Source: a virus. Taken from it: a stretch of 60,067 nt of DNA. A model generated the notes under the pieces. That model saw nothing but the letters and a program-made list of their open reading frames with translations, made no database searches and had not been told where the DNA came from. Shown in pieces: positions 27,842 through 52,218 of this stretch (positions are counted from its first letter, which is position 1; each line of letters opens with the position of its first letter). The stretch spans positions 1 to 60,067 of the IMG/VR virus record IMGVR_UViG_3300025894_001094, one strand, 5' to 3'. The position numbers were made by a program, and so were the translations under genes.

Positions 27842-28572
27842 ATTTCAAATTCCTTAGTCCAAGTTTGTCCTATATCAGGATAAAAAGTTCCGGGTGTTCT
27901 TTTAATCATACCGTCTAAATCGTAAGCAGGAGAGGTGCATACGAATTTAATTTTGTACTCTCGATTTTCACCGTAAAAAAGATCGTTCCAAACACCGGTT
28001 TTTAAATATGTCCTCATATTCAAGACGTATGTTTCTGCCGACTGTAATGCCAGTCTTCTATCGGAATCTTTACTTTCATGGTCCTTTTTATTTGCGGAAA
28101 CATATTTTTTCCACACCTCTAACCACTCTCTCACTTTCTTTTCGCTTAGAAAATGGTCATCGTCCAAATCTGCAAGAGAAGGATGGGTAAGAGGTTCCGT
28201 TCCCATTGCTTCTCTCAACTCATTTGCTCTAAGCAACAAAGGTTTGAGATTAGAATTTAGACTATCATAAACCTTTGTTGGCATGAACCCGAGTTTTTCT
28301 TGGATATACCCATACTTCGCAAATGATGTCATATACACATCAGGAAGAATTTTAGTTTCTTCGTGTAAATCCCATCCTGAAACTTTACGTATCCATTTTT
28401 TAAGACTTGCTACTTGTTCCTTTTCTGATACTTCATAATGAGTAAAATCAGTTACCGCATTATATGCATCAATTTGCTTTTCTTCTGTTTTTGCCTTAGA
28501 AAACTTTTCCCAATTTGGTTCAGCAATAAGCGTTTTAACTTTTCTCGGAGCAGATTTTTTTACCTTTGGCAT
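27838..28572 (-). CDS. Conserved phage protein of the 33-32 region (244 aa)
   Basis: The protein is basic at the N-terminus (MPKVKKSAPRKVKTLIAEPN), helical in the middle with a highly charged stretch (ADLDDDHFLSEKKVREWLEV), and ends in a strand-rich segment. No catalytic motif is visible. It lies immediately upstream of gp33-like. In T4 the neighbour of 33 is helicase loader 59 or dsbA, but sequence similarity to either is not apparent to me. A DNA-binding or replication accessory role is possible from its charge and context only. Confidence 0.5.
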   Translation of the reverse strand: MPKVKKSAPRKVKTLIAEPNWEKFSKAKTEEKQIDAYNAVTDFTHYEVSEKEQVASLKKWIRKVSGWDLHEETKILPDVYMTSFAKYGYIQEKLGFMPTKVYDSLNSNLKPLLLRANELREAMGTEPLTHPSLADLDDDHFLSEKKVREWLEVWKKYVSANKKDHESKDSDRRLALQSAETYVLNMRTYLKTGVWNDLFYGENREYKIKFVCTSPAYDLDGMIKRTPGTFYPDIGQTWTKEFEI

Positions 28573-29393
28573 CTATATTCCTCGTTTGCATCTACGATTG
28601 CATCTAGCAAAGGTGAACTTTTAGTGATATATCTCAAAGCCGACATGTCTTTCGGCAGACAATGCCCACCGTATCCAAACTTACCGTCTGGTCCTGGAAC
28701 CTGTGAATGAGATTTACCGATGCGAGGATCAAGTGCGATAGCATCGATCATACCATCGAAACCCTCAAACCCACACTCTTTATAAATGCTATACATCTCA
28801 TTGAAGAATGTAACTCGGGTTGCTAAGAAACAGTTCTCAACATATTTAGAGAATGCTGCTTGTTCTAATGACAGGTAACGAACTTCTTTCAGTTCAGGCA
28901 AAACTGGTTTGAACAACTCGTCCCAGAACCGACAGTCATCACCACCGTAGATCGCAAAAGTTTGTTTCATGAACTCTTCTTCGGTAGATCGATGCATATT
29001 AGACGAACCAAGAAACTCGGGCGAGTATGTCAGGTTGTAATGTATATCAAGAATTGAATCCATCGTACCAGACGAGATAATAGCAGTATAGTGAATGTCG
29101 GTCAACCACACGGGGTCCACTGCTGACTTGATTAGAAACTTAGTGTCAGCGTTTAGTGTGTAATACTTGTCGAGCACTGCTGCAACGTTAGACGTGTCGC
29201 ACTGACCGTCAGGAAGAGCAGGTGTCGCAACACAAATAACAACCGCATCAGGAGAATCGATCTGTTCATCTCGATAATAGTTGAAACCCTTTGCAGGATC
29301 ATCAATAAAGACATCCTGCTCACTAGGCAGTTGTTCTAGTGCATGGTGTACTGCTTGCCCAACGGGACCATAACCCGCAACTACGATTTTCAT
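28560..29393 (-). CDS. Truncated UDP-glucose/GDP-mannose dehydrogenase family protein (277 aa)
   Basis: The N-terminus KIVVAGYGPVGQAVHHAL is a Rossmann NAD-binding loop (GxGxxG variant at residues 7-12). The catalytic region GKFGYGGHCLPKDMSALRYI carries the Cys nucleophile (about 245) and Lys/Asp of the GFGGxCxPKD motif. Family enzymes oxidise UDP-glucose to UDP-glucuronate in two steps and are about 390-450 aa. This one ends 28 residues after the motif, so the C-terminal UDP-binding domain is missing. The stop overlaps the next gene, so it is not an obvious frameshift. It may feed the glycan cluster or use another nucleotide sugar. Confidence 0.85.
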   Translation of the reverse strand: MKIVVAGYGPVGQAVHHALEQLPSEQDVFIDDPAKGFNYYRDEQIDSPDAVVICVATPALPDGQCDTSNVAAVLDKYYTLNADTKFLIKSAVDPVWLTDIHYTAIISSGTMDSILDIHYNLTYSPEFLGSSNMHRSTEEEFMKQTFAIYGGDDCRFWDELFKPVLPELKEVRYLSLEQAAFSKYVENCFLATRVTFFNEMYSIYKECGFEGFDGMIDAIALDPRIGKSHSQVPGPDGKFGYGGHCLPKDMSALRYITKSSPLLDAIVDANEEYRCQR

Positions 29394-36050: not shown

Positions 36051-36794
36051 TTACTGCATTCTACGAAACACGTGTTCCGTGTTTATTGATTGGGTATACC
36101 CTTGAGCAACAACTTTTTTGTGTACTAAAATATAGTCATTTCTTATACGATTAACAAGCACATAGTCATATTTTTCGGTGAACCTTTCCATTATTTCTTT
36201 AAGTGTACCCGATCTTCTAAAGATTTCTATTATCACCACAGGTTTATCTCGTTGTAAGATATCATTGCAATGAGACACGAAATAATTTTCTGATTGTTCT
36301 ATATCGACTTTAATAAGATCAATGTTTTGAATATCGTATCTATAAGCAAATCTATCAAACTTCGTTACCGGCACTCTGAAATTTTCATCATCTCTTTCAA
36401 CATAATTCCCTGATTTAAGTGATTCCGGAAATGGATGAAGAGAAGTATAACCCCCCCATAATGCTGATTTAACACGAGTCGAACCCTCAACCTCATGTAT
36501 GGCATAGTTATGATGAGTAATGTTATTATACTGTTGATTATTTATTTTCGCACATTCTATAAAAGGCGAATACATTTCTATTGCGTGTACATGATCGAAG
36601 TTTCTGGCAAAAATATTACTTGCTGCTCCATATGATGATCCAATATCAATACAGGTGCGAAAGTTTTGAACATAACTCATTGCGCTATAGAACATTCCTT
36701 TTTGCCATTGCAGAGATTCGAGTGAATAATCATCATAAGCAAGATCTTTTTCATCATGAAGAAGAGTCCAACCTTTGACTATTTTAGTTTTCAT
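36051..36794 (-). CDS. FkbM-like methyltransferase (247 aa)
   Basis: I choose the ATG at 36794; a longer frame reads back through the DUF454 gene. FRTCIDIGSSYGAASNIFAR is SAM motif I, HAIEMYSPF motif II, and VPVTKFDRFAYRYDIQNIDL with IKVDIEQSENYF the FkbM C-terminal signature. It overlaps the DUF454 gene by 11 bases and is the last gene of the operon that begins with the nuclease and bilin genes. Substrate unknown. Confidence 0.8.
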   Translation of the reverse strand: MKTKIVKGWTLLHDEKDLAYDDYSLESLQWQKGMFYSAMSYVQNFRTCIDIGSSYGAASNIFARNFDHVHAIEMYSPFIECAKINNQQYNNITHHNYAIHEVEGSTRVKSALWGGYTSLHPFPESLKSGNYVERDDENFRVPVTKFDRFAYRYDIQNIDLIKVDIEQSENYFVSHCNDILQRDKPVVIIEIFRRSGTLKEIMERFTEKYDYVLVNRIRNDYILVHKKVVAQGYTQSINTEHVFRRMQ

Positions 36795-37206
36795 TTCTTT
36801 TTTGATATTCCTCTTCGGATCCTGGATATTGTGTCCAGCAGTAGGTTGCAACCATTGTCATGAAAATTGTTGACCATAGCAGTGCGTTGAGATTATACGT
36901 TGTGAACCATAGAAAGAGTAGTGAGGAAGACATCACAGTGACCATGGCATATTTTGCTTTGGTTGGAAAGATTCTTTTCTCTACGAAGTTTGTGAGAAAT
37001 GGTCCAAAATGTTTGTGATTATACAGGTAATCATGCATACGTTTTGATGACTTCGAGAAACAATATGCAGAGAATACAAGAAATATTGAGAATGGAATAC
37101 CGGGTGTGACAAATCCGATATAAGCAAAAACCAGAGATATCATCCCGAGTGTGTACCATAGTGCTTTCTTAATACGGGAACTGTTGTTTTTTGAATTGTG
37201 TGACAT
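36784..37206 (-). CDS. DUF454 (YbaN-like) inner-membrane protein (140 aa)
   Basis: The hallmark GFVTPGIPFSIFLVFSAYCF then SKSSKRMHDYLYNHKHFGPF matches DUF454/YbaN (V-x-P-x-x-P-T-x-P-F...ArsS-x-r...l-x-x-hp-x-fGp). Membrane segments are at about 16-32, 34-50 and 88-125. In bacteria YbaN-like proteins are short inner-membrane proteins of unclear function, often near recR or heme/iron genes. Here the gene follows heme oxygenase and bilin reductase in one operon. Probably acquired from a bacterium. Confidence 0.8.
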   Translation of the reverse strand: MSHNSKNNSSRIKKALWYTLGMISLVFAYIGFVTPGIPFSIFLVFSAYCFSKSSKRMHDYLYNHKHFGPFLTNFVEKRIFPTKAKYAMVTVMSSSLLFLWFTTYNLNALLWSTIFMTMVATYCWTQYPGSEEEYQKRNEN

Positions 37207-37837
37207 AATCGGGTTCTAGTCCAAGGGATATCATGACGTTTTTTGAGTTGGTGTTTTCGAGTTGATTTCGACAATATTTAGATCGATTAGATTTATAGTC
37301 TTTTAGATGTACCCAATCAACGGTGGTATTCATGAGAGTGTCAAGATCTTTGAACCATGCGTGAAGATTTTCTTTTCCCATGTGAACGAGGTTTTTGATC
37401 TCTTTGGGGTCATCGGTTGCACCAGCAACTACCATATGAGGGGAGAATATTTCCCGTGCCCAAGGGGGTAATGCACGTGTGCGTTTGGGAATATAGGGGG
37501 TTACGTTGGTGATGAAATCTTTGGATGCTTGGGAGTAGTTTTTGGAGACTGGTGACATGTCATGAAAACATCCGGTGACTTTGTTCTTGCCACAAATGAT
37601 ATCAAACCCGTATATGGGCATGGGATAATCGTCTTTTGAGAAACAGGCAATATGCATCATCCACATTTTTTTGGTGTCGCGGCAGTCGATGATGGATATA
37701 TTTGCGAGATCGGTCTTTTTCGAGGTGTATCGAATATCCGTGTGCGGTCCATTTTGTGTGATAGTGGGTCGATCACAATGCCCTTCCATCATGATCTGAG
37801 CATATTTGCTGAAATCAATAAATTCATCCCATATCAT
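37169..37837 (-). CDS. pcyX: Ferredoxin-dependent bilin reductase (PcyX/PebS-type, 222 aa)
   Basis: Family features are MWMMHIACFSKDDYPMPIYG, FDIICGKNKVTGCFHDMSPV and a C-terminal FKKQQFPY. Asp93 in CFHDMSP aligns with the catalytic Asp105 of PebS. Phage PebS is 233 aa, PcyA about 245. Such enzymes reduce biliverdin IXalpha with ferredoxin electrons. The heme oxygenase that makes biliverdin is directly upstream with a 14-base overlap. PcyX is the metagenomic phage form that makes phycoerythrobilin; whether this is PcyX or PebS needs a tree, so the symbol is tentative. Confidence 0.85.
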   Translation of the reverse strand: MIWDEFIDFSKYAQIMMEGHCDRPTITQNGPHTDIRYTSKKTDLANISIIDCRDTKKMWMMHIACFSKDDYPMPIYGFDIICGKNKVTGCFHDMSPVSKNYSQASKDFITNVTPYIPKRTRALPPWAREIFSPHMVVAGATDDPKEIKNLVHMGKENLHAWFKDLDTLMNTTVDWVHLKDYKSNRSKYCRNQLENTNSKNVMISLGLEPDYVTQFKKQQFPY

Positions 37838-38372
37838 GGCTAGTCATCTCTAAGTGGTCTTTTGATATTGCGATATGCCATTTAAAACCGATTTTTACCT
37901 CGTCAATGTAAGGTCGATAAAGAGGAGCATCATAGGTCTCACAATACCGATCTCGAACCAATTGTCTTTTAGCAACTATCTGCTCGAATTGATACGCAGA
38001 AGCAGTGGTAGGATATTTTTGTTTCATAATTTGCCCACCATACATGAACCCCATATAATTCAGGTAGATATGTGCTCGAACATCAGAACAGACATTTTTG
38101 AGATAGGTAGCATAGGCAATAGCAATGTGAGACGGTTCTGCCCACCAAAATGCGCGAAGTTGTGCTAGATCGTTTTCTAGATAGGGCAAACGTCGAATAG
38201 AAGGATCAACACACAAGTCTAGAACAGAGAATATTTCAATGTTTGACATGAGATAAACAGCACGTTCTTCGTCTGTTTGATTGCCTTCGAACATTTTTAC
38301 ATTAAAAGGTTGTTCTTCTAATTCTTCATGCAAATAATGCGTTGCTGACCTGATCGCGTTGTTTGTACTCAT
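37824..38372 (-). CDS. Heme oxygenase (182 aa)
   Basis: ATG at 38372 follows GGAAACCATTG. ATHYLHEELEEQPFNVKMFE carries the proximal His (about residue 15), and VRAHIYLNYMGFMYGGQIMK is the distal helix that is AHxYxRYxGDLSGGQ in plant/cyanobacterial HO1. The distal helix keeps G-x-x-x-GGQ, but the Asp that organises water in HO-1 (Asp140 in human) is Phe here. It makes biliverdin for the bilin reductase just downstream. At 182 aa it is shorter than HO1 (about 240). Confidence 0.82.
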   Translation of the reverse strand: MSTNNAIRSATHYLHEELEEQPFNVKMFEGNQTDEERAVYLMSNIEIFSVLDLCVDPSIRRLPYLENDLAQLRAFWWAEPSHIAIAYATYLKNVCSDVRAHIYLNYMGFMYGGQIMKQKYPTTASAYQFEQIVAKRQLVRDRYCETYDAPLYRPYIDEVKIGFKWHIAISKDHLEMTSHDMG

Positions 38373-39039
38373 CAATGGTTTCCAGTAATTTGGTTGTGTG
38401 TGTATCTCTGTGCTCTACAAAAACTTGCTGTCCGGGTGACCCATTGAACGTCATCTCGTCTACGGAAACTATGGTAACGAGTTGGGTAATTGGCATTCCG
38501 GTGCGTTCTTCCCACATGATGGCATAAGCTGCTTCTTGCATGAAATATTGTCCGATCCAGTTTCGCTTCTTAGGTTTTCTGCTGGTTTTGAAATCGATGA
38601 TGGATAATTTCCCATCGAACTCAGCAACACAGTCAACACGCCCAGCAACGCCAAGGTGATCGCTGTATAACGGAAGCTCCTGTCCGAACACTGTTCCGAT
38701 TCGTTCATCTAGCACATCCTTTACTGTGAGAAATGATTGTATAATATTTGGGTTGAATTCTGCTTTCAAATCTTCCATTGACGTATTGTCAATATATTTT
38801 TCAATGAATTCGTGAACGGCAGTACCTCGCCGTGATGCAATTTCAGATACTTTGTTTGCTTCTTTGTCACCTACCTTCTTACGCCATGCTGCTATTGAAT
38901 CTTCGGAAAGAATCGATAGCACTGTGGTGATGGATGGGTAATTTTTACGCTCCACTGGATGCTCGTACACACGACCATTTTCTGTGGTGTGTGCGATCAT
39001 GTCAGTATAACCTAGATCTATTTTATCATGTTTAAACAC
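38326..39039 (-). CDS. RecB-like PD-(D/E)XK exonuclease (237 aa)
   Basis: I choose GTG at 39039, preceded by AAAAGGTTACCCCGC, because the product then starts (M)FKHDKIDLGYTDMIAHTTEN with NYPSITTVLSIL, the usual N-terminus of these phage nucleases. Catalytic residues are seen in AGRVDCVAEFDGKLSIIDFK (Asp, then Asp-x-Lys). An upstream extension would overlap the previous gene heavily. It probably degrades host DNA or acts in recombination. It overlaps heme oxygenase by 47 bases and has a perfect internal promoter upstream. Confidence 0.82.
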   Translation of the reverse strand: MFKHDKIDLGYTDMIAHTTENGRVYEHPVERKNYPSITTVLSILSEDSIAAWRKKVGDKEANKVSEIASRRGTAVHEFIEKYIDNTSMEDLKAEFNPNIIQSFLTVKDVLDERIGTVFGQELPLYSDHLGVAGRVDCVAEFDGKLSIIDFKTSRKPKKRNWIGQYFMQEAAYAIMWEERTGMPITQLVTIVSVDEMTFNGSPGQQVFVEHRDTHTTKLLETIDEYKQRDQVSNALFA

Positions 39040-39736
39040 GCGGGGTAACCTTTTGTTGATCCATACCGCGACCATCAGATATATCAGACTGATCGACACG
39101 CGATTGGTGAGTACTTAAAGGTTTATTATATAACATTACTCGCATGTTGTCAAGCTTTGGAATCTTAAATGAGTCATGATTGTGGTGAAATACGAATTCT
39201 GTCTTGGGAAATTCTCGAAATATGTCCCGCCATATAGGTCTCCAATTATTCAGCAAGCGATAATTGTTGGTGTCTGTTCGATCCGATGAGAGATACACAT
39301 CTGTGATTGACCTCATATTAAAATCGAATATGGTATCAAATCCATATAGATGAATAACATCCGGTTTGAATTTAGTTGCGGTGTAGTGTACTGCCATATG
39401 CCCACAATTAAAATTAGTGGCATTTCCCGCATATTTTGGAACGTGTGTGTAGAATTCTTTGATGTTGGGTGCGTATTTCATATAAAATGCGTGTCGAGAA
39501 TTCATCCAAATGCGAGGTCGTGTTCCTAGCACCCAATTATATTGATCAATTGCTATTTCACCAGCAGTGAGTGCTGCCATCATTTTAAAATCTACCATGC
39601 AAGTCGCATAGACTTCTTTTGCAGGAACTTCGAAGGGTGGCATGTTGCACAATATTTTAGTGCCTATCCTCGGTTCTTCCAAATAATATGATGCTTTATC
39701 ACCATTTCCTAAAACATGAATTTCTTTACTGCTCAT
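39032..39736 (-). CDS. Putative glycosyltransferase/DUF115-like protein (234 aa)
   Basis: The product begins SSKEIHVLGNGDKASYYLEE and includes YATCMVDFKMMAAL, QYNWVLGTRPRIWM and PDVIHLYGFDTIFDFNMRS, a layout resembling DUF115/sialyltransferase-like proteins (Rossmann start G-N-G, then an IYLxGxD block). It stands at the head of the glycan genes, overlapping the GT8-like gene by 11 bases. The similarity is weak and the role inferred. Its 3' end carries an embedded consensus promoter. Confidence 0.5.
   Translation of the reverse strand: MSSKEIHVLGNGDKASYYLEEPRIGTKILCNMPPFEVPAKEVYATCMVDFKMMAALTAGEIAIDQYNWVLGTRPRIWMNSRHAFYMKYAPNIKEFYTHVPKYAGNATNFNCGHMAVHYTATKFKPDVIHLYGFDTIFDFNMRSITDVYLSSDRTDTNNYRLLNNWRPIWRDIFREFPKTEFVFHHNHDSFKIPKLDNMRVMLYNKPLSTHQSRVDQSDISDGRGMDQQKVTPRV
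39125..39153 (-). promoter_or_regulatory. Perfect consensus sigma70 promoter inside the 3' end of the 234-aa gene
   Basis: Minus strand: TTGACA (39153-39148), 17-bp spacer, TATAAT (39130-39125), both exact. It would initiate about 80 bp before the exonuclease GTG and so drive exonuclease, heme oxygenase, bilin reductase, DUF454 and FkbM genes as one early operon. Confidence 0.8.
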
Positions 39737-40394
39737 TATAAATCATTTTCTCAATTTGCATATTACCTTTCAGTCCTGTCCAATGCATACACAATTTATT
39801 CGGTGAGTCTTCTCCGTCTAATAATTGTATACGCAACCAATTGTATATGTTAGGCAGATCTGTGATGTTGGATACTCGTTTTAATGGTGATTCTTTCAGG
39901 ATTTCGTGCAACACTTCCTGATCACCTTGCTTAGGGTTATCTATACAAGATCTTACCCACTCATTTAAAATTGTGGGTTTATCTCTTATCGCAATGACAC
40001 CAGAATTGTGCCACGTTTCACCGCGTCTTTTTGACCATGGTTTGTCTTCTACCATGCCAATTTTGTTATTTTCTATAAATTTAAAAATGCCAGATAGATC
40101 ACCAAGAACGTGTATATCAGTGTCCAACCACACTGTTTCATGACTATCGACGAGTTGCATCGTTTTTGGTTTCAAAAACCAACCGTTTGCTCTTTGTTTG
40201 GGTATATCAATCACATCAGCAAATTCACTGACCTGATATGCCCATGCTCTCGTCTCTGATGACATGCCAAAATCAGCAAGTACGATGGGAAGAGTATTAT
40301 GTTTCACATAATTTTTAAGAAACCACTTCAACTGCCATTCTGTTTTTGTGTCACACCCTGTAACAAATGCTCTAGGGTACTTGTATGATGCCAT
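39726..40394 (-). CDS. GT8-like glycosyltransferase (222 aa)
   Basis: ATG at 40394 follows TTGGAGTG; an upstream-extended frame is rejected. The DxD metal motif is in ETVWLDTDIHVLGDLSGIF, the acceptor region in ETWHNSGVIAIRDKP, and the C-terminal CMHWTGLKGN resembles the HxxGxxKPW loop of GT8/glycogenin enzymes. It would transfer a hexose from a nucleotide sugar with Mn2+. It overlaps the GT25 gene by 23 bases. Confidence 0.72.
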   Translation of the reverse strand: MASYKYPRAFVTGCDTKTEWQLKWFLKNYVKHNTLPIVLADFGMSSETRAWAYQVSEFADVIDIPKQRANGWFLKPKTMQLVDSHETVWLDTDIHVLGDLSGIFKFIENNKIGMVEDKPWSKRRGETWHNSGVIAIRDKPTILNEWVRSCIDNPKQGDQEVLHEILKESPLKRVSNITDLPNIYNWLRIQLLDGEDSPNKLCMHWTGLKGNMQIEKMIYNEQ

Positions 40395-41067
40395 ACGTAT
40401 CACTCCAATTATGTTTTGCTCTGCACCCAACATCTCTTTGAATAGTGGTAAAGTTGTCTCTTGCTTCTACTGGCCATGGATAATACTCTTGTAACCATGG
40501 AAAATTCTGTATATTCAAATATACATCAGTTGGACCCGCCATTGCGGTTTGAGTTGCATGTTCAATAAGACTTTGAGCACCTTCGGGTGATACTGAATAA
40601 GCATGAGCACCAGGAAAGTATCCTTTGGACACAAGCGGTTGAAATCCCATTTTTGGCGGTTGTTGAAACTGACCATAACTAGGGTGTCCAAAGTTGACAA
40701 TGTGCAGTTTTTGTTTAGTGCCATAGAGATATAGTTTATCAAAATTTTCTGGTATAGAATTCACAGCAACAGCATCGTGTTCTAATATGAGTAAGGTTTC
40801 GTTTAGAATTACACTCTGTTCCCATAATCTAAAATGAGACATGAAAGCAGACATACAATTTTTAACATATGATCCGCCATTTTCATTGAAATATTGACTT
40901 TCGATACCTTTATTTTTAAATAATGAGTATATCTGATCTTTCGGAGTTGTTGCTCTCCATTTCTCGACAGTAATATGTTTATTAGTACGTTCGAATGATT
41001 TGATACACCTATTAGCAGCAGCAACAGAGGCAGGTAAATCCATAATGGTTATAACATATGCTTTCAT
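40372..41067 (-). CDS. GT25-family glycosyltransferase, copy 1 (231 aa)
   Basis: The GT25 pattern is KAYVITIMDLPASVAAANRC at the N-terminus, then NCMSAFMSHFRLWEQSV and LLILEHDAVAVNSIP, where EHDA replaces the classic EDDA. The C-terminal HAYSVSPEGAQSLIEHA matches the family (AYxIsxxGAxkLl). GT25 enzymes add Gal or Glc in lipooligosaccharide synthesis and on collagen. It overlaps the second GT25 gene by four bases. Confidence 0.85.
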   Translation of the reverse strand: MKAYVITIMDLPASVAAANRCIKSFERTNKHITVEKWRATTPKDQIYSLFKNKGIESQYFNENGGSYVKNCMSAFMSHFRLWEQSVILNETLLILEHDAVAVNSIPENFDKLYLYGTKQKLHIVNFGHPSYGQFQQPPKMGFQPLVSKGYFPGAHAYSVSPEGAQSLIEHATQTAMAGPTDVYLNIQNFPWLQEYYPWPVEARDNFTTIQRDVGCRAKHNWSDTYGIIQVP

Positions 41068-41774
41068 TTCGTGGTCGTAGATATTGATGGTTGTATGGTG
41101 GTTGCGTAGTCAGTAAGGCACCCGAGCATGCGTGGCATCAGTTGCTTACACATGATAGCATCGTTTGGCCATGCACCGAAATGACGCACCAGTTCAATGA
41201 GTGTTCGTGCTCCTATTGGTGTTATATAGTATGCCGAATTTCCAGGTAATCCTTGTGGTATCTGCCTGTTCTCGTCTATCCATGGAGCATACATCACTGC
41301 GACACCATGGGACCATCTGCCTTGGTGCAACATGTTATGGTAAACAGCAGACTTCCGAGTTGCTCCACGAGGATCGTTGAGTGAGATGATGTTGTGTTTG
41401 TCTATCAATTCTTCTAAATCCAAACGGCGAGTGAATATAGCATCATGCTCTAATATCATATACTCCTCTTGTTCTTCGGCACACTGTTTCCACAGTCGGT
41501 AATGAGACATGAAGCATGCCATGCGTTTGGAGGGTTCAGCAGTTTCGTATGGAGTTTTATATAACCCGCTCTGTATGTCAAGATGCCCTTTGGTCCATGG
41601 ATAATTCCATTTAAGGTTATGTTCTTTGAATTGGTCGATTACATTATCTGCGTCAGTTGCTAGGTATTTGTCAATGACGAAATTGTTCTTGTAATGATTA
41701 CTTGAATCAATGCATTTGTCTGCAAGTTCAAACGAGTTTTTATCGTCTGATAATGTGATGATTTTTGCTCTCAT
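41064..41774 (-). CDS. GT25-family glycosyltransferase, copy 2 (236 aa)
   Basis: A clear paralogue of its neighbour: SKRMACFMSHYRLWKQCAEE then YMILEHDAIFTRRL, and NSAYYITPIGARTLIELV near the C-terminus. EHDA is again used as the metal-binding motif. Tandem GT25 copies with four-base overlaps suggest duplication followed by specialisation for successive sugars. Confidence 0.85.
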   Translation of the reverse strand: MRAKIITLSDDKNSFELADKCIDSSNHYKNNFVIDKYLATDADNVIDQFKEHNLKWNYPWTKGHLDIQSGLYKTPYETAEPSKRMACFMSHYRLWKQCAEEQEEYMILEHDAIFTRRLDLEELIDKHNIISLNDPRGATRKSAVYHNMLHQGRWSHGVAVMYAPWIDENRQIPQGLPGNSAYYITPIGARTLIELVRHFGAWPNDAIMCKQLMPRMLGCLTDYATTIQPSISTTTK

Positions 41775-42502
41775 AATATTGTGGTCCCCAGATATTTCTC
41801 AATTTGTGCGCCACCATATACACACAGGTGGTCATCGTCTTCACTCAGTACCTGATACCACCCATTCTCTGCTACTTGTAACAATTTTGTGTCGTGCAAT
41901 TCTTGGCAGAGTTCTTGGTTGAATTTCGCGGGTGGGTGCATGATCATTGGATCCATAAGATACTTATACCAATCTTGGTTGTCGGCAAACCCCTTTGGTT
42001 GAACCTTTGGTAATTCATATAACTCGAACAGGTTGCGGTGACGTGATGTGCGTGTACCAAACCCTATTGCGATATTTTGCTTGACACTTTCTCTGACATA
42101 TTTTGTGAGGTCTACCTTGTGTGATAGGTAGGTGTCATATCTCACTCGCACAATCAGATCATAGTGCTTCTCTATGCTCTTGAGTTGCTGGGCATGTCCC
42201 AATATCTGCTTGGTGTGGTGCTGGGTGCGTTCACGATATTCCGGATCTTTCAAACATCGTTCCCTCAGTGACCTCTGTTTGAATTGCAAATTTTCTATTG
42301 GCACATCAACCAGAGGGTGGTAGTGTATATGGGGTTCTTTTAGCAACAAACAATCTAAATTGGGTGGGATCAGGTGTGCCTTGGACCACCACGTAGCATA
42401 ATAGTAATCAGCATCTGGGAAATGTTTTTTTACAGATGTGTTGCAACGAATGAAACTCTCGTTCGTGCGCGGCACACCAGAGTAAAACACTGCTATGTTC
42501 AC
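41771..42502 (-). CDS. RxRYD-family putative glycosyltransferase, paralogue A (243 aa)
   Basis: It begins MNIAVFYSGVPRTNESF. The family motif is HYDLIVRVRYDTYLSHK, followed by NIAIGFGT, DPMIMHPPAKFN and a C-terminal AENGWYQVLSE with CVYGGAQIEKYLG. All these blocks recur in four other genes of the window. A GT-A-like enzyme is inferred from the Rossmann-like start, the R-x-R-Y-D metal-type motif, and company. It overlaps its neighbours by four bases on both sides. Confidence 0.6.
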   Translation of the reverse strand: MNIAVFYSGVPRTNESFIRCNTSVKKHFPDADYYYATWWSKAHLIPPNLDCLLLKEPHIHYHPLVDVPIENLQFKQRSLRERCLKDPEYRERTQHHTKQILGHAQQLKSIEKHYDLIVRVRYDTYLSHKVDLTKYVRESVKQNIAIGFGTRTSRHRNLFELYELPKVQPKGFADNQDWYKYLMDPMIMHPPAKFNQELCQELHDTKLLQVAENGWYQVLSEDDDHLCVYGGAQIEKYLGTTIL

Positions 42503-43155
42503 ACAGGACTCCTGCTGAAATGCACGTCTGCTTCGTGTCCTTGGGGGTTGCTTGTGGTCACGTAGAATCCCTCACCCCTGAGATATTGCCTTGCGTTTGC
42601 AAGTGTGTTGTTGGTGCCCTTGTACAGTTGCGTCTTTGCGGCAACCTCGATGACACCCGTTTTCACTCTCTTCAAATATTTGCCCATACTCTTGAGCACG
42701 TTAATGTCGTTGCCCTGTGCGTCCACGTGAATGAATGCAATCTCCTCAAACTCTATGTTGTCAAGGTAAGTATCGAGTCGAGTAGTTTCTACCTCAATTC
42801 TTTCCTGAACGTTAAAATCAGGTCTGCCCTGCCACACATCATGGATGTTATCCGCAAACTCGAATAAACTACTGCACCCATATGGGTGGATCTTGCGTCC
42901 AGTACCATCGGTGAATCGCGCATCCGGTTCATTAAAACTCAGGTTAAAATTTGCGGTACCATCGACAAGGTCTACTGCTTGTGGGTTAACGAACACATTG
43001 GGGTTCTCCGCAAACCTCTTGTTCGTATGCTCGAACATTGCGGGTACGGGTTCAAACCCGTGCAGTTCCATCTTGTTTCCGAATCGATCTAGAATGCGAG
43101 CAGTGTCAAACCCATCGCTCATCCCCACTTCCATCAGAATCTGTTTTTGTATCAT
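42499..43155 (-). CDS. FkbM-family methyltransferase in the glycan cluster (218 aa)
   Basis: ATG at 43155 overlaps the upstream stop (ATGA); longer frames would read through paralogue B. MEVGMSDGFDTARIL is SAM motif I, ELHGFEPVPAMFEHT motif II, then VETTRLDTYLDNIEFEEIAF and IHVDAQGNDINVLKSMG match FkbM. It probably O-methylates a sugar of the cluster's glycan. Its base composition is visibly less AT-rich than most neighbours, suggesting separate origin. Confidence 0.82.
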   Translation of the reverse strand: MIQKQILMEVGMSDGFDTARILDRFGNKMELHGFEPVPAMFEHTNKRFAENPNVFVNPQAVDLVDGTANFNLSFNEPDARFTDGTGRKIHPYGCSSLFEFADNIHDVWQGRPDFNVQERIEVETTRLDTYLDNIEFEEIAFIHVDAQGNDINVLKSMGKYLKRVKTGVIEVAAKTQLYKGTNNTLANARQYLRGEGFYVTTSNPQGHEADVHFSRSPV

Positions 43156-43814
43156 GGCATGTACCTTTTTAGTTGTATTGCTCCCCTGTAATTTCGAAAC
43201 CCGTTCATGCCCAGTATCTGGTGCCAACCTGCATTGGTGGGCATCATACGCTCCTGCTCGACCAGAGAACATACGTTCAGGCATGCCTCTGGTTTGTGGA
43301 TGGTCATGAAATCCAGCAAAAATGGTTTGGATGCTCTAAATGGCAACAAGGGTTGAAATGCCATCAATTTGTTTTCGTCGTCTTTTCTGTTGGTGTTGCC
43401 TATGCCAATGCTCGCACCATCTCGATTGCACTGCTCACACAACTCCATGAGTTTATCGGTGTTGCCCAGAAATGTATCGTACCGCATGCGTATGATAATG
43501 TCATAGTTTTTTTTGATAGAGTCTAGTAACAACCAATGTGCGAGGTGCTGAAAATACCCTGTTTTCAGGCGAGGTATCTCAGAACCTTTGTGCTGTAGAT
43601 GTTCACCATGGACTTCCATGAACTCAGGGACCTGATAGCAGTTATAAGTTGGTTTTGGATCGGGAAAGTATCGCATGCGATCAACGTCCACCTTTGGACG
43701 TTCGCTTTCCCACGTGGATAGGTAAATGTCACCTTTGGGTAAATTGGAAAGATGGTTCTGCATCCACCCATCCCACTTGCGGTAGAGTCCCGAATAGAGG
43801 ATTGCTATTTTCAT
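43152..43814 (-). CDS. RxRYD-family putative glycosyltransferase, paralogue B (220 aa)
   Basis: It begins MKIAILYSGLYRKWDGWMQN with the family motif NYDIIIRMRYDTFLGNTD, then GASIGIGNTN, DFMTIHKPEAC and the end TNAGWHQILGMN, RGAIQLKRYM. It is the shortest member of the five. It lies between an FkbM methyltransferase and the HAD-nucleotidyltransferase fusion with four-base overlaps to each. Confidence 0.6.
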   Translation of the reverse strand: MKIAILYSGLYRKWDGWMQNHLSNLPKGDIYLSTWESERPKVDVDRMRYFPDPKPTYNCYQVPEFMEVHGEHLQHKGSEIPRLKTGYFQHLAHWLLLDSIKKNYDIIIRMRYDTFLGNTDKLMELCEQCNRDGASIGIGNTNRKDDENKLMAFQPLLPFRASKPFLLDFMTIHKPEACLNVCSLVEQERMMPTNAGWHQILGMNGFRNYRGAIQLKRYMP

Positions 43815-45154
43815 GACTTGTCGTGTATGAATCTATTAAGATCTTCAGGTGTACCAAGACCCCACATTTCCTTTGCTTTATGAGTGCGTATAACTTTACC
43901 GTCTTCGATTGCTTGGTTGTATACTGGACACACGTAGAACTCGTTATTGACACGAATATCTTTTTCGATCATGCGTTCTGCGTATTTAACAAAGTCTGCA
44001 CCACGCCTCCAATAATAGTATCCCACAGTTGCCTCATCGCTGATTGGGTTCTTCTCTGCGACTTCGGTAACCATTCCTGATTCATTAGTTTTGGCAAATG
44101 ACCACTTGGGGTGGGTAGCAGTGAATGTCACGATACCACCATCTGCCTGAGACTCTTGCATCTCGTACATAAACTGGATGGGGTCCCAATCAACCCATTG
44201 GTCACTGTTAGCAAAGAACAACGGTTGCTCGTTGTTAATCAACTCCTTTGCGAGCAAGGTGGTGCATGCCGCTCCTTCGGTGATGCCATCGACTTCTATC
44301 ACTTTGCAATTGGGTGCTATGAGCGGAAGCATGTTGTCGAGATGGAATTGCTCTCGATGCTTTTTCTGCACGATGAATATAAAATTCGCGTCCACTCCTA
44401 TGTTCTCAACAACCACCTGAATCATGGGTTTACCGTTAACGTCAATCAACGGTTTAGGAAACGAATACCCTGCCTGTGCAAAACGAGATCCCGCACCTGC
44501 CATAGGAATTAGTACGTTGACATTATCGTCTTTCCATTTTGTCACAAACTGTTCTCCTGTAAGTTTAGAATATATGTTATCCACTGTCACGTCTTCTGGT
44601 GCTGACACTCGTATGACCTTTGCTCTTGCTCGATGAGCAGCAGCAAGTCCTTGTGGTGAATCTTCAACGATGACTGTTTCTTCTGGCAAACATCCTTGCA
44701 TAGACATTGCTTTCCAGTACATTTCTGGATGAGGTTTAGGATTTTTAACATCATCATTTGATATGATGACAGACAAATACTCCATCAATTCTGATTTTGC
44801 CAGAGCAGTCAAAACAGTTCGACGTATGCTATTTGAGCACACACCCACCATATAACCATCATCAACCAGTTTTTTAAATAATTCTACTATGTAAGGACGA
44901 GACCTGATATTCAAGAATTCTTTCATTGTCAGTTCTTGTTTAAGATCAAAAATTTCTTTGTATCGACTTGGTGGGAGACCTTTTCTTTCAGTCAACATCT
45001 CCATCTTCTGGGTTGTTTTCCGTCCGTCATAAATGTTAATATGTTCTTCTTCGGTGATTGCATATTCACCAAGTGCAGTATTTAAACAAGCAAAATGAAT
45101 CCACTTAGTGTCAATCAAAACCCCATCAAGATCAAATAAAATTAATTTAACCAT
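43811..45154 (-). CDS. HAD phosphatase - sugar nucleotidyltransferase fusion (447 aa)
   Basis: Residues 1-210 are a HAD hydrolase of the beta-phosphoglucomutase type: ILFDLDGVLIDTKW (nucleophile Asp), VGVCSNSIRRTVL, KPHPEMYWKAM, and VIVEDSPQGLAAA. Residues 213-447 are an NTP-transferase: VLIPMAGAGSRFAQAGYSFP with KPLIDVNGKPMI, and ADGGIVTFTATHPKWSFAKT. The pair could dephosphorylate or isomerise a sugar phosphate and activate a sugar-1-phosphate to an NDP-sugar. It overlaps the GDPD-like gene by eight bases. The fused layout is unusual; the product cannot be deduced. Confidence 0.88.
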   Translation of the reverse strand: MVKLILFDLDGVLIDTKWIHFACLNTALGEYAITEEEHINIYDGRKTTQKMEMLTERKGLPPSRYKEIFDLKQELTMKEFLNIRSRPYIVELFKKLVDDGYMVGVCSNSIRRTVLTALAKSELMEYLSVIISNDDVKNPKPHPEMYWKAMSMQGCLPEETVIVEDSPQGLAAAHRARAKVIRVSAPEDVTVDNIYSKLTGEQFVTKWKDDNVNVLIPMAGAGSRFAQAGYSFPKPLIDVNGKPMIQVVVENIGVDANFIFIVQKKHREQFHLDNMLPLIAPNCKVIEVDGITEGAACTTLLAKELINNEQPLFFANSDQWVDWDPIQFMYEMQESQADGGIVTFTATHPKWSFAKTNESGMVTEVAEKNPISDEATVGYYYWRRGADFVKYAERMIEKDIRVNNEFYVCPVYNQAIEDGKVIRTHKAKEMWGLGTPEDLNRFIHDKS

Positions 45155-45611
45155 TCTTATATCTCTCTATGTAATCTGAACATATACCGCGAAATCCCTC
45201 TTCCTCCCATGGATAATCTTTGCCTAACGCAACAGTGATTGCAACTCCTGCGCTCTTAGGTAAGGGTGCTGGTTTGAATGGGTATGCCCATATCCAACCT
45301 TTGGAAGTAAGTGTATAATCATCTTCCTGATGCCAGAAAGAGTTGAAGGTGCTTGACATGAGTATGAGTGCTTGTGAATTCTTGCAATGCACCACCAACT
45401 GATCTCGATACTTCATCATCCATTCTAGATCAACACGATACTCTGGTTCATCATGACCCAACCATACATGAGACTGTGTGCCATCACCTAGTGCCCAGCA
45501 ATCGAGTTCTACACGGTACCTTTGCTCTAATGCATGCTCAATATATTCTGGTTTGTTCTCCTCGCTTGGATTAGGACCATCGAGATTACCTCTGTGTGAA
45601 ATGTATATCAT
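45147..45611 (-). CDS. Glycerophosphodiester phosphodiesterase/PI-PLC-like protein (154 aa)
   Basis: The first strand and loop IYISHRGNLDGPNPSEENKP holds His6-Arg7, and RYRVELDCWALGDG holds Glu35 and Asp37, followed by VWLGHDEPEY with the second His: the HR...ExD...H set of GDPD enzymes. At 154 aa it lacks the second half of a full GDPD barrel (about 240 aa), so it may be a minimal or altered form. In the cluster it might remodel a lipid- or phosphodiester-linked glycan. Confidence 0.68.
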   Translation of the reverse strand: MIYISHRGNLDGPNPSEENKPEYIEHALEQRYRVELDCWALGDGTQSHVWLGHDEPEYRVDLEWMMKYRDQLVVHCKNSQALILMSSTFNSFWHQEDDYTLTSKGWIWAYPFKPAPLPKSAGVAITVALGKDYPWEEEGFRGICSDYIERYKNG

Positions 45612-46390
45612 ATCATTTGCATCAGACGTGCTAAGTCTTCTCCTTTGTGAGGCAGTTTGTCTTTGAGAAAGAAATGTACAAAATCACACTCTGTTATCTG
45701 TGTGTTGGCGGTGAACAGTCCATTGAATTCGGATGGTAATTTAGTATGTGGAATCTTCTGTTTCTTGATCCACCAGTTAAGCAACGTCTGATCCGTACTC
45801 CACTTCCACGCACCATCACCGTCAATGAATCGCTTGAACTCAAATCGATTGAGAAACTCTCGGGGGGTCTCGTCATTAAGATAGGGTAGTAGGTCCTTGT
45901 TGAACACCATCACACCCATGTTCATGAACTCAGCACCGTAAAAATTCCAATCCCAATCTACATCTTTGAGTGTGAGGTACTGCATGCGTGAGTAGTTTTG
46001 AATCTTTGCGATGTAGTCTTTGGTCAATGGCATGTCTCGTTCAACACATGCGCCGAACGCAGTGCCCTCTTCCATTGCCTCAAAAATGTTGGGCGCATTC
46101 TGACGAACGAACACATCAGCATCTATTACTGCTATCTCGTCATATTCACCCAGATATTTAAATGCGTTCTCTTTCTCATAGATGGGCAAATAACCACCAT
46201 GCTTTGAAGTTGCTTCTCTACTTCTGTTGCTCATGAATGGATCTGGTGCAATCCTCAACAACGGTTGAGTCTGTACAAAATGATCTATGTTGTGTAAGCG
46301 ACAATATTCTTTAACACTATCAATACAAAATCTGTATAGTTTAGAGTTTGCTGATTCACCTACTTTTACCTGATATACCAATCTTTTCAT
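45608..46390 (-). CDS. GT8-like/GT-A glycosyltransferase (260 aa)
   Basis: YDEIAVIDADVFVRQNAPNI carries a DxD (DAD), preceded by a helix with Arg/Lys; NMGVMVFNKDLLPYL and WSTDQTLLNWWIKK are typical GT8/GT34-like blocks, and FVHFFLKDKLP ends with a His-containing loop. Likely a metal-dependent sugar transferase. Four-base overlaps with both neighbours keep it in the glycan operon. Confidence 0.72.
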   Translation of the reverse strand: MKRLVYQVKVGESANSKLYRFCIDSVKEYCRLHNIDHFVQTQPLLRIAPDPFMSNRSREATSKHGGYLPIYEKENAFKYLGEYDEIAVIDADVFVRQNAPNIFEAMEEGTAFGACVERDMPLTKDYIAKIQNYSRMQYLTLKDVDWDWNFYGAEFMNMGVMVFNKDLLPYLNDETPREFLNRFEFKRFIDGDGAWKWSTDQTLLNWWIKKQKIPHTKLPSEFNGLFTANTQITECDFVHFFLKDKLPHKGEDLARLMQMI

Positions 46391-47211
46391 CTGACGTGTC
46401 TGTTACCTTCCATATGTCGCATAATACCCAATCCACCATTAATATTAACATGATCAATATTGTCATTAGCATAGCACAGTATTTGCCACCAACCCCATTC
46501 TGCGGCAAGAAGACTCTCGGTTTTCCACCAGTGATCGACCACACTTGTATTGAACAAACGTGGTTCAAACATTATCATACCATCAAACACTCTTTGGTGC
46601 CATTTAGGATTGGTGCTCTTTGATTCTTCTATATGATAAACACCAGTTTCTAATTTCTTTCGTGTATCCCAATGTCTATCTTCTGGCGCATGATCTATTA
46701 AAAATCCCGTAACCACTTTATTTTTGTACGTAGCTTCAATATACTTATCAAAGTTTATAGCATAGGACAACATGCCATCCCATCGAAGTCTGATGTAGAG
46801 ATCAGGTGGTGTGTCTATTGTCTTAATGAGTTCACATGTCGATACTTGTTGTAATGCTCTGGTGATATGTCCAGGTTGAGGTGATTCGTCTATTCCCCTC
46901 ATTACCTTTTCATGTTTTTTAAGTTGTTCTGACCATGCAGGAGTGTCAACAAAACGGGGAATAGATTTATACGGATTATATGCTTTTGGCATCGGTGTAT
47001 ACACTACGTTATCAGCAGCATGTTTTAAAAGATAGTTACTCGAATCTAACAACGTCTTCATGGAACTTCTATCCCACGTGTGATATCGAAAGGTCACATC
47101 ATATTTCGGATGATCATAAAAATGGTGATGCATTCTGTATAAACATTCAGAGAGTTGTTTACTTGTTGCGTTTGCTGGAAACTGTCCTGTTATAAGGATA
47201 TCAATTCGCAT
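46387..47211 (-). CDS. RxRYD-family putative glycosyltransferase, paralogue C (274 aa)
   Basis: ATG at 47211 follows AGGATTATAGAA. It begins MRIDILITGQFPANATSKQL. The motif is PPDLYIRLRWDGMLSYA with Trp for Tyr, then NKVVTGFLI, DGMIMFEPRLFN and AEWGWWQILCYAND with NINGGLGIMRHM. It overlaps the radical SAM gene by 11 bases. Confidence 0.6.
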   Translation of the reverse strand: MRIDILITGQFPANATSKQLSECLYRMHHHFYDHPKYDVTFRYHTWDRSSMKTLLDSSNYLLKHAADNVVYTPMPKAYNPYKSIPRFVDTPAWSEQLKKHEKVMRGIDESPQPGHITRALQQVSTCELIKTIDTPPDLYIRLRWDGMLSYAINFDKYIEATYKNKVVTGFLIDHAPEDRHWDTRKKLETGVYHIEESKSTNPKWHQRVFDGMIMFEPRLFNTSVVDHWWKTESLLAAEWGWWQILCYANDNIDHVNINGGLGIMRHMEGNRHVR

Positions 47212-48175
47212 TTCTATAATCCTGCAAATCAAACTCAGTGCCATGCATGTGATGCAAGTCACGATCATGATTGGTCCAGACTAGAACCTCGGGATCATCA
47301 ACTAGAAAATCACAATCATTGCAATAGCTAGGATAGTCACCAGATCGATGATCGTCACGGAGTTTGCTATACGCTTCACCCTCCCAAATCTCTTCGATGG
47401 TGTTTTTGCTTGTGTGCCCGAGGACTGCTTCTTCGTCTCTGCCGAGGACCTGACAGCACGGGTGAACAGCACCTCTCTGACCATCAAGACCACCAGCACG
47501 AATAACAACATCAGGACTAAAAGGTCTTCCACAAGTTTTCTTTGCTCCTTGGCGTACACCAGTCTCGCTGATGTCGGTCACACCCGACCAGTTGTGCATC
47601 TTCCACACCTCAGTCTTCACATCTAACTCATTCACAATCCTTTTATAATGTTCTAATTCATACTCTATTTTACTGTTGTCTGTAATCAGGTGATACGTTG
47701 ACACTACACAATCTGCGTTGGTGTCGATTACATATTGCCGCATTGCCTTGACCTTGTCCCACGTACTGCCGAACGACCCACCAATGCGATTATACATCCA
47801 CTTGTCATATGCTTCTACATCATACCCTATCCACGAGAAACGATAGAAGTCTAACCCAGCATCGACACAGTCACGCATGAACTTACCTTCCATGCGATAA
47901 CCGTTAGAAAATATAAATGCTTTCGCACCATACTTCTTTACGATCTCAATGTATTTAGGTAAGTTTCGGTTGAGTGTTGCTTCACCCGAACCATCTAGGT
48001 TGACAACGCGCAGTCCATGTTGAGCACAGTCTGCCACGTTATCCTCGAACTCTTGAAGCGACATTTTTTTGAGGAAGTCTTTGTGTCTGCCACCAGTACG
48101 CACGTCTTGTGGGCACATACTACACGAGTAGTTGCACCCTCCGTTTACTTCAATTACCGCCCTATCGATTTTCAA
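47201..48175 (-). CDS. Radical SAM/SPASM-domain protein (324 aa)
   Basis: The radical SAM cluster motif is Cys14, Cys18, Cys21 in NGGCNYSCSMCPQDVRTGG, followed by LRVVNLDGSGEATLNRNL (GGE-like). The C-terminal part has extra cysteines in KKTCGRPFSPDVVI, HPCCQVLGRDEE and YPSYCNDCDF, a SPASM-type auxiliary cluster. Such enzymes modify peptides or sugars (epimerisation, crosslinking). Being inside a glycan operon suggests carbohydrate or glycopeptide modification, but no precursor peptide was found nearby. Confidence 0.88.
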   Translation of the reverse strand: MKIDRAVIEVNGGCNYSCSMCPQDVRTGGRHKDFLKKMSLQEFEDNVADCAQHGLRVVNLDGSGEATLNRNLPKYIEIVKKYGAKAFIFSNGYRMEGKFMRDCVDAGLDFYRFSWIGYDVEAYDKWMYNRIGGSFGSTWDKVKAMRQYVIDTNADCVVSTYHLITDNSKIEYELEHYKRIVNELDVKTEVWKMHNWSGVTDISETGVRQGAKKTCGRPFSPDVVIRAGGLDGQRGAVHPCCQVLGRDEEAVLGHTSKNTIEEIWEGEAYSKLRDDHRSGDYPSYCNDCDFLVDDPEVLVWTNHDRDLHHMHGTEFDLQDYRNAN

Positions 48176-49037
48176 TTATATGATCCACTTGTCTTTTATA
48201 TTTGCTGATGTTGAGATCTAACTTAGGTATAGATTTATCTAGGTGGTCTACTAATGACTGCATCGTAAAACTACGGTTCTTATCCTTTTTGGGACTCATA
48301 AGAGGATATGCTTGTGGATCATGAACATTAACTATTTTGCTATCACCAACACATGCGGTGGGTTTGTATAGCATTCTTGCAAAATAATGCCACATACCAT
48401 CATAACCCATGGTGAATCGTGCTGTTTGCATATGATACAGCACGTCTCTTATTGGAGTTCGATAACACAAATCTACAACAGACCATCCCTGCCCTTTTAA
48501 TGACTCTATTGCTAGTTCCCAATCCTCATCGGAATAAGATCTCTTCCAAGAAGCAGCAGGTTCTGCATTGAACTTGGGTCTCCATACCGTAACTTTATTG
48601 TCTACTGTTGGAATACCCATGAGGTCATCGTTGAACTTCCAACTATTCAGACCTTTGGGTACAATGAGATCGTCTTCCTTCCAATTGCGTCGATGGAGAT
48701 TTGAGAACAATTGTAATCCAAAATCTAAATCATGATCGAACCGATGCTCATAGGTGACCAGATGTGGTTTATAGCACATACTGTGCACATATTCGATTTT
48801 TTCAAATATAGACTCTGGATCTTCAAAATGATATTCATACAGTATATCATGATCCCAATGAAAAATCAAGTGGATTTTTATGTCTAGAAGGTTTGCAACG
48901 TAAAAGGCAGTTGACATAGAGAACATGAAGTCTCCTGCTCCCGGAGTACCTCTTACTAATATATCATTGCCCCGCAGAGTCCATTCGTGTTTAGAATACG
49001 GGTCTCTAAAGGACACCCCTGCTAGGTGTCTGTTCAT
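48162..49037 (-). CDS. GT-B-like glycosyltransferase (291 aa)
   Basis: The N-terminus DILVRGTPGAGDFMFSMSTA FYVANLL pattern, read as GTPGAGD plus a helix, resembles the start of GT9/heptosyltransferase-like GT-B enzymes, and TMGYDGMWHYFARMLYKP resembles the donor-site loop (TxxDgGxxHxA). It overlaps the radical SAM gene by 14 bases. The assignment rests on pattern only. Confidence 0.5.
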   Translation of the reverse strand: MNRHLAGVSFRDPYSKHEWTLRGNDILVRGTPGAGDFMFSMSTAFYVANLLDIKIHLIFHWDHDILYEYHFEDPESIFEKIEYVHSMCYKPHLVTYEHRFDHDLDFGLQLFSNLHRRNWKEDDLIVPKGLNSWKFNDDLMGIPTVDNKVTVWRPKFNAEPAASWKRSYSDEDWELAIESLKGQGWSVVDLCYRTPIRDVLYHMQTARFTMGYDGMWHYFARMLYKPTACVGDSKIVNVHDPQAYPLMSPKKDKNRSFTMQSLVDHLDKSIPKLDLNISKYKRQVDHIIENR

Positions 49038-49038
49038 A

Positions 49039-49203
49039 TCACATCTTTACGTTATACTTGTCCTGTAAATTTTTCAGTTGATCTGGTCGAATCTTAATGC
49101 GTTTCTTGGATCCGTCTTCACCGCTTGCTGAAAATTTTTCTGAACGATACTTATCTTTCGACCTATTTTTATTTTTAGGATCGAATCTTCCATACTTAGC
49201 CAT
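49039..49203 (-). CDS. Small basic ORF (54 aa)
   Basis: ATG at 49203 follows GGCAAGTAATATT. The product (MAKYGRFDPKNKNRSKDKYR, then KKRIKIRPDQLKNLQDKYNV) is highly basic with a C-terminal helix. It begins four bases after the 45-aa ORF and stops just before the GT-B-like start. Nucleic-acid binding is possible from charge alone. Confidence 0.55.
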   Translation of the reverse strand: MAKYGRFDPKNKNRSKDKYRSEKFSASGEDGSKKRIKIRPDQLKNLQDKYNVKM

Positions 49204-49207
49204 AATA

Positions 49208-49345
49208 TTACTTGCCTTGTCCTCTATATTTTTTGTAGTTTGCTTTCTTTCTTTTATTCATAGAGGACGTGTTTAAGTGTCCTCTACCAATAGAAGTTCC
49301 TTTTGGTTTGTGTTCAACTTTATTAGTGCTGATGTTCTGCGCCAT
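49208..49345 (-). CDS. Small basic ORF (45 aa)
   Basis: ATG at 49345 overlaps the lysozyme stop (ATGA). The product begins MAQNISTNKVEHKPKGTSIG and ends RKKANYKKYRGQGK; it is Lys/Arg-rich and probably disordered. Coupling to lysozyme supports its reality. Function unknown. Confidence 0.55.
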   Translation of the reverse strand: MAQNISTNKVEHKPKGTSIGRGHLNTSSMNKRKKANYKKYRGQGK

Positions 49346-49791: not shown

Positions 49792-49824
49792 TTAATCCCT
49801 CCAAAGTTGCGATATTAATACTTA

Positions 49825-50523: not shown

Positions 50524-50804
50524 ACGTTGATCGTATTCTTTGCTAACCCGTGCTTTTTAATCTGAGCATCGGATAGACCACTAGTTTTGGTCGAATCGGT
50601 TTCGTTTTTCATTTTCTTTAAAAGATCTTTCCAATCGCCAGAAGTCTTGTTAATGATATTACCGGTGTGAGTAACAAGAGAGGGCGAACCAAGAATCTTT
50701 TGCTCCCATTCTCCGCTTGCTACCATCTCTTCCTTTTTAGAAATAGAAATAAACATCTCTGTTATTTCTCCCGTTTCAACATTCATCATGTCATATGTCG
50801 GCAT
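50520..50804 (-). CDS. FmdB-like small conserved phage protein (94 aa)
   Basis: It begins MPTYDMMNVETGEITEMFIS and has ASGEWEQKILGSPSLVTHTG with SGDWKDLLKKMKNE. This resembles a small protein of marine T4-like phages annotated as FmdB-like; the zinc-ribbon cysteines of bacterial FmdB are absent. It lies between phoH and a GT25 gene with overlaps to both. Confidence 0.6.
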   Translation of the reverse strand: MPTYDMMNVETGEITEMFISISKKEEMVASGEWEQKILGSPSLVTHTGNIINKTSGDWKDLLKKMKNETDSTKTSGLSDAQIKKHGLAKNTINV

Positions 50805-51531: not shown

Positions 51532-51544
51532 ATTATAGATAGGA

Positions 51545-51703: not shown

Positions 51704-51746
51704 AGGCAAGTCTCCTTGTTATCGATTTGGATTGAAGTTCACATTA

Positions 51747-52190: not shown

Positions 52191-52218
52191 GATACCTCAC
52201 TTCTTATTCAATGTTTAT

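Follow-up and report, generated by a model that had tools for sequence, protein, structure and literature searches.

A phage heme oxygenase and bilin reductase gene pair in which both enzymes lack an acidic residue found in their known relatives

Results

A recurrent gene pair with a paired residue change

The 60,067-base linear virus record IMGVR_UViG_3300025894_001094, a genome fragment that was analyzed in its entirety and is referred to here as the window, carries on its minus strand a gene for a heme oxygenase (HO; P0002, 182 aa, 37824..38372, with its ATG at 38372 and its stop ending at 37824) and, downstream of it, a gene for a ferredoxin-dependent bilin reductase (FDBR; P0001, 222 aa, 37169..37837, with its ATG at 37837 and its stop ending at 37169). 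Each of the two proteins lacks an acidic catalytic residue present in its known relatives, and this paired change is fixed throughout the clade to which the window belongs. On balance, we lean toward reading the locus, in which genes for an exonuclease, HO, FDBR, and a DUF454 protein overlap one another, as a heme-to-bilin auxiliary cassette whose two active sites have been remodelled. An earlier, sequence-only reading of this DNA had placed an overlapping HO-FDBR pair at 37169-38372, and it did so correctly: HO matches the Pfam family Heme_oxygenase (PF01126; E=3.8e-9, 37.1 bits, cut-off 23), FDBR matches Fe_bilin_red (PF05996; E=1.5e-12, 48.1 bits, cut-off 31), and the two genes share 14 bases (37824-37837). 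That reading also proposed a route from heme through biliverdin to a reduced bilin. The gene pair for such a route is present, but since both enzymes are without the acidic residue, the route itself is an assumption here.

Relatives of the pair were collected from 187 sources. Nine of these have no HO within the DNA sampled (one has no FDBR there either), with matches starting no more than 231 bases from the start of the locus, and the remaining 178 yielded 109 distinct pairs, the window included, in which HO lies upstream of FDBR on the same strand. The alignment-based scans in this collection cover the best 80 of 599 stretches, and all counts given below are of sequences fetched rather than of natural abundance. 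Recurrence in 109 distinct pairs indicates that the arrangement in the window is not due to chance. The distance from HO to FDBR is at most 100 bases in 98 pairs and greater in 11. The window's clade, hereafter the S-clade, comprises 34 distinct pairs, all with Ser at a defined FDBR position and a residue other than Asp at a defined HO position, while the 75 distinct pairs of the PcyX type, hereafter the D-clade, have Asp at both; mixed combinations are absent (0/109).

The sources differed in what they contributed. Among 50,697 phage records, FDBR matched 21 and HO matched one, and the only record matched by both was that of Pelagibacter phage Mosig EXVC030M (FDBR 33.5%, HO 26.4%), which is among the 75 PcyX-type pairs. 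Direct searches of viral contigs returned 25 loci matching FDBR and seven matching HO, and the alignment-based scans returned the best 80 loci for each protein as overlapping sets. GTDB contigs gave one relative locus, a PcyX-type pair (L115) on a contig assigned to a Rickettsiales metagenome-assembled genome (MAG). Among 398 genomes of the phylum of this MAG, FDBR was found in that genome only, and the contig is probably that of a phage. PcyX-type cassettes were also seen on contigs of 278,126 and 275,366 bases (L070 and L107), which is jumbo-phage size.

Heme oxygenase: conserved fold, altered distal network

The AlphaFold2 model of HO (built with 52 aligned sequences; mean pLDDT 94.5) superimposes on human HO-1 (1xk0) with a Z score of 21.1 and 2.5 Å over 178 residues, and Foldseek gives TM scores of 0.84-0.85 to several HO-1 entries. 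The proximal heme ligand, His15 (human His25; codon 38328..38330, on the minus strand like the other codons given below), is kept in 34/34 S-clade proteins, as are the residues at the human Glu29, Tyr114, His132, Tyr134, and Gly143-Gly144 positions. The distal hydrogen-bond network of HO is described as involving five positions, Y58, Y114, R136, D140, and N210 (PMC5623701). At the Asp140 position, alignments place Phe109 of the window (38046..38048), within the distal motif HIYLNYMGFMYGGQ; the 34 S-clade proteins have F (13), M (13), L (5), V (2), or W (1) here, compared to Asp in 75/75 of the PcyX type. Asn105 (38058..38060) occupies the Arg136 position and is invariant in the S-clade (34/34), compared to R (61), L (10), K (3), or W (1) in the D-clade. 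Phe48 (38229..38231) aligns with Tyr58, where the S-clade has F (32) or M (2) and the D-clade has Y in 73 of 75 rows, the other two being gaps. Finally, His166 (37875..37877) aligns with Asn210, a position held by H (30), N (2), or Q (2) in the S-clade and by A (69), S (3), or N (3) in the D-clade.

In total, 11 of 166 HO positions separate the two clades with no more than 5% overlap, and four of the five network positions, all except the unchanged Y114, are among them (hypergeometric P=5e-5). Leu18, another of the 11, corresponds to human Ala28, described as a heme contact (PMC5623701); Asp-containing bacterial HOs vary there too. As a bacterial control, 30 PF01126 loci were considered, of which six could be aligned to the PcyX-HO profile; Asp is present in four and Lys in the other two, which belong to another HO type. 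Judged from this small control of six loci, the Asp is not universal across the wider HO family. Among the four Asp-containing control loci is L242, the phage-like pair from the Rickettsiales MAG. PF01126 matched above its cut-off exactly once on each of the 37 S-clade records, and there is thus no second HO on the DNA sampled. Combined with the gene order, the motif HxYxNYxxxxxGGQ/S provides a marker for a host search.

S-clade HO is under purifying selection. Close pairs mostly give dN/dS values of 0.05-0.19, for example 0.12 at dS 0.38, 0.14 at dS 0.50, and 0.085 at dS 1.15, and the highest value for a close pair is 0.34, seen at dS 0.09. The larger values obtained for highly divergent pairs (dN above 0.3) cannot be relied on. 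Two simple explanations for the altered residues were considered and rejected: a decayed pseudogene is ruled out by these ratios and by the 34 distinct pairs, and sequencing error by the identical change on many contigs.

A rival possibility is an HO that is no longer an oxygenase. Such a protein might bind or sequester heme or act in a peroxidase-like manner, with FDBR using host biliverdin or another tetrapyrrole. The replacement of Tyr58, Arg136, and Asp140 in all 34 S-clade HOs, which removes the polar distal network, would fit this alternative, and the D140A variant of human HO-1 is reported to be a peroxidase (PMC5623701). On the other hand, HO adjoins FDBR without exception in the S-clade (34/34, never more than 100 bases apart), suggesting that the two act in one pathway, and plant HOs set a precedent (PMC7948506), so that we regard a non-oxygenase as quite unlikely. 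We favor an active, re-wired enzyme over a dead one, because plant HOs lacking the same Arg and Asp still work and because the Asp motif is likewise missing from bacterial HOs of another type (2/6 alignable loci).

Bilin reductase: a PcyX-like protein without Asp55

By sequence, the best match of FDBR among solved structures is PcyX_EBK42635 (5owg; E=1.8e-26). Its AlphaFold2 model (44 aligned sequences; mean pLDDT 94.3) superimposes on PcyX 5owg with a Z score of 20.8 and 1.9 Å over 171 of the chain's 181 residues, and on PcyA 2d1e with a Z score of 25.5. Alignments to both structures place Ser48 (codon 37694..37696) at the position of PcyX Asp55, a numbering inferred from an offset of 8 between the 5owg chain and the protein, and of PcyA Glu76. 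This residue is Ser in 34/34 S-clade and Asp in 75/75 D-clade proteins. His62 (PcyA His88) and Asp79 (PcyA Asp105) are kept in 34/34 S-clade FDBRs. Asp55 has been described as the PcyX-specific catalytic residue (PMC11480375), and all three of Glu76, His88, and Asp105 are reported to be essential to PcyA (PMC9800206). In one S-clade locus (L018:1605-2427), FDBR is split into two overlapping reading frames next to an intact, Asp-less HO.

Phylogenetic trees of both proteins were obtained by quick searches without bootstrap. Three pairs (L018, L024, and L115) were omitted as too short and the rest were thinned at 88% identity, leaving 71 phage pairs, to which nine reference sequences were added for FDBR and two for HO. 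In both trees, a branch with SH-aLRT support of 100 separates the S-clade from all other sequences, on long stems of 1.5 (FDBR) and 1.41 (HO) changes per column. In the FDBR tree, the S-clade joins PcyX (SH-aLRT 98), solved PcyX groups with the 75 D-clade pairs, and PebS of P-SSM2 and P-RSM6 sits on a separate branch (SH-aLRT 98), with PebS and PcyA both outside the group of PcyX plus S-clade. The quick FDBR tree nests the S-clade within PcyX. A tree in which PcyX is a single clade exclusive of the S-clade was not rejected and had a likelihood higher by 11.56 (p-AU 0.67), implying that a sister relationship is at least as good as nesting. The outgroup HOs, from cyanophage P-HM2 and marine virus AG-345-P14, retain Asp, and loss of this residue in the S-clade is most simply viewed as derived. 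Pairs also recombine within the S-clade, as indicated by partner swapping: the HO of L004 groups with that of L021 and its FDBR with that of the window, while L002 is 89% identical to the window in FDBR and 41% in HO. The sequence-only reading would have been refuted by a reductase inside the PebS clade together with psbA in the genome; instead, the reductase is PcyX-like and not PebS, which lies far outside, and psbA has no match in 46 records, most of them fragments. A PcyX-like pair in a phage is not in itself news, since HO with PcyX has been published for phages of heterotrophs (PMC11480375).

This placement raises the possibility that the window simply carries an ordinary PcyX cassette, in which HO would produce biliverdin IXalpha, FDBR would produce phycoerythrobilin as characterized phage PcyX does, and the residue changes would be chemically meaningless. 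The position of FDBR as sister to or within PcyX and the retention of His62 and Asp79 in 34/34 are consistent with this, and the absence of the Asp motif from another bacterial HO type implies that the wider family tolerates its loss. Nevertheless, the changes are fixed in 34/34 pairs, those in HO affect the catalytic network, and for a related phage FDBR that makes a different product, the absence of this acid from the reductase has been named as the likely cause (PMC11480375). We consider an unchanged PcyX pathway somewhat unlikely, and the data incline us to the reading in which both active sites have been remodelled.

Genomic context, phage lineage, and host

The cassette is flanked by two further genes on the same strand. 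Just upstream, a PD-(D/E)XK exonuclease gene (38326..39099; phrog_298, E=1.4e-69) overlaps HO by 47 bases, and downstream, a gene for a DUF454 (YbaN-like) membrane protein (36784..37206; PF04304, E=3e-25) overlaps FDBR by 38 bases. The exonuclease is present at 29/33 other S-clade loci compared to 1/75 D-clade loci and marks a conserved site. The DUF454 gene, found at 19/33 other S-clade loci and 1/75 PcyX-type loci, may encode part of the pathway.

The window contains T4-like baseplate, tail, DNA-end-protector, and gp32 genes. Five long S-clade records were compared with it: four have the same backbone (gp6 46-50%, gp2 65-87%, gp32 61-68%), and all five share the exonuclease and neighboring genes in addition to HO-FDBR. 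By gp6 and gp32, the closest named phage is C48C1 (37.6% and 51.7%, respectively), a complete record of 156,191 bases with no stated host. This phage has the conserved exonuclease too (L204:9843-10520), but different genes come immediately after it, making this a site without the cassette. A megablast search of the middle of the window (28000-52000) against phages gave no match.

The sequence-only reading had noted the absence of photosynthesis genes, and this was borne out: psbA (PF00124), chlorophyll-binding or hli-type (PF00504), and phycobilisome (PF00502) families have no match within the window. Over a wider set of records, most of them fragments, psbA was found in 0/46 (37 S-clade, eight PcyX-type, and Mosig), and PF00504 and PF00502 in 0/37 S-clade records. 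These results bear on whether the pair could be a cyanophage pigment cassette that sustains phycobilisomes, with psbA encoded outside the fragment sequenced. The window is indeed a fragment, and cyanophages are the named phages that rank next after C48C1 in gp32 matches, at approximately 50%. Beyond the missing photosynthesis genes, however, neither psbA nor FDBR was found in the complete genome of C48C1, and the FDBR tree identifies the reductase as neither PebS nor cyanophage PcyA, making such a cassette highly improbable. The S-clade lineage is T4-like and probably not cyanophage, and we think a heterotroph is a likelier host than a cyanobacterium.

Other genes in the window include an AAA_33/zeta-toxin-like kinase (52256-52927, minus strand) that is 96% identical to its counterpart in another record (G002), compared to 33-89% for other shared genes; a recent exchange of this gene is possible. 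Glycan-type genes are located at 28563-29393 and 39000-58921 (minus strand). They encode a UDP-glucose dehydrogenase, FkbM methyltransferases, GT25 and GT8-like transferases, a radical SAM/SPASM protein, a HAD-nucleotidyltransferase fusion, and a Nol-like carbamoyltransferase, and perhaps serve surface modification.

Discussion

If both enzymes are active, HO would bind heme via His15 and open the ring with O2 and electrons from the host, and distal water and protons would be carried by a network lacking Asp140, for which Asn105, Tyr87, and His166 are candidates. FDBR would then take biliverdin and reduce it with host ferredoxin, using His62 and Asp79 without a carboxylate at position 48. The product is predicted to be a bilin other than phycocyanobilin, probably phycoerythrobilin or a two-electron bilin, since PcyA is reported to need Glu76 for reduction of the 18-vinyl group (PMC10151467). 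The benefit to the phage might be iron release, antioxidant activity, or chromophore supply. More tentatively, the S-clade could represent a phage pathway of its own that operates in non-photosynthetic bacteria and turns heme into an unusual bilin, encoded in a near-core operon of a T4-like lineage, with an HO that lacks the distal acid and has its own network for O2 activation, and an acid-less FDBR fitted to its product. In that case, HO could possibly have a different cleavage position or catalyze a non-oxygenase reaction of heme.

Several observations weigh against a remodelled, active cassette or against parts of it. The S and D pairs belong to different phage lineages, as the distribution of the exonuclease illustrates, and the perfect association of the two residue changes may reflect shared ancestry within each lineage rather than co-selection; the idea of strong co-evolution between HO and FDBR is weakened for this reason. 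The substitute network in HO is a guess, and His is also found at the N210 position in two Asp-containing bacterial HOs, so that His166 is not special to the S-clade. The behavior of human D140A would predict that oxygenase function has been lost. In FDBR, 24 of 218 positions separate the S-clade from PcyX, which makes this protein a strongly diverged branch as well, and Ser48 is thus not necessarily the decisive change. A simple rule for the product is also at odds with the CB_2 phage FDBR, which is said to lack Asp55 and yet makes phycocyanobilin (PMC11480375). Finally, plant-type ferredoxin (PF00111) has no match on the 37 S-clade records, mostly fragments, implying that the electron donor would be the host's or encoded elsewhere in the genome.

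HO and PcyX have been described in pelagiphages and other non-cyanophages, with active enzymes whose purpose is left open, and the reason for heme-to-bilin genes in phages of heterotrophs has been called enigmatic (PMC11480375). The doubly altered variant was not found in searches of open-licence papers, though the trees of PMC11480375 may hold S-type sequences. If the S-clade pair does yield biliverdin and a reduced bilin despite these changes, the HO-1 scaffold can work without its textbook aspartate; if it makes no such product, the cassette serves some purpose other than pigment making. Either outcome bears on what heme-to-bilin genes in phages are for.

Among known systems, cyanophage PebS and cyanophage or cyanobacterial PcyA share the FDBR fold of the window protein, and PebS and some PcyA are phage-borne, but the PcyA Glu76 position, as aligned to 2d1e, is Ser in the S-clade. 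The vHemO/vPcyA pair of the freshwater phage CB_2, known here by its description (PMC11480375), is likewise an HO-FDBR pair in which PcyX Asp55 is absent, with alphaproteobacteria as the proposed host. Plant HOs (GmHO-1 and AtHO-1), with 19.5% identity to human HO-1, are reported to lack equivalents of Arg136 and Asp140 and to use Ala149/His150 and other residues instead (PMC7948506). In contrast, S-clade HO has Asn and a hydrophobic residue at these positions and otherwise keeps the HO-1 motif H-x-Y...GGQ, and the window model is closer to HO-1 (Z score 21) than to GmHO-1 (7cka; Z score 15.2). The nearest system is the phage hemO-pcyX cassette, represented by PcyX_EBK42635, the contigs of PMC11480375, and Mosig EXVC030M, an isolate on Pelagibacter HTCC1062 that, like the window, has no psbA match. 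It has the same two families, gene order, and overlap and is T4-like, with FDBRs 30-37% identical to that of the window, but PcyX-type pairs keep both HO Asp140 and FDBR Asp55 (75/75) while the S-clade keeps neither, and their phage lineage and neighboring genes differ. On the basis of these sequence comparisons, the S-clade pair is a second and divergent form of the phage HO-PcyX cassette known from the literature.
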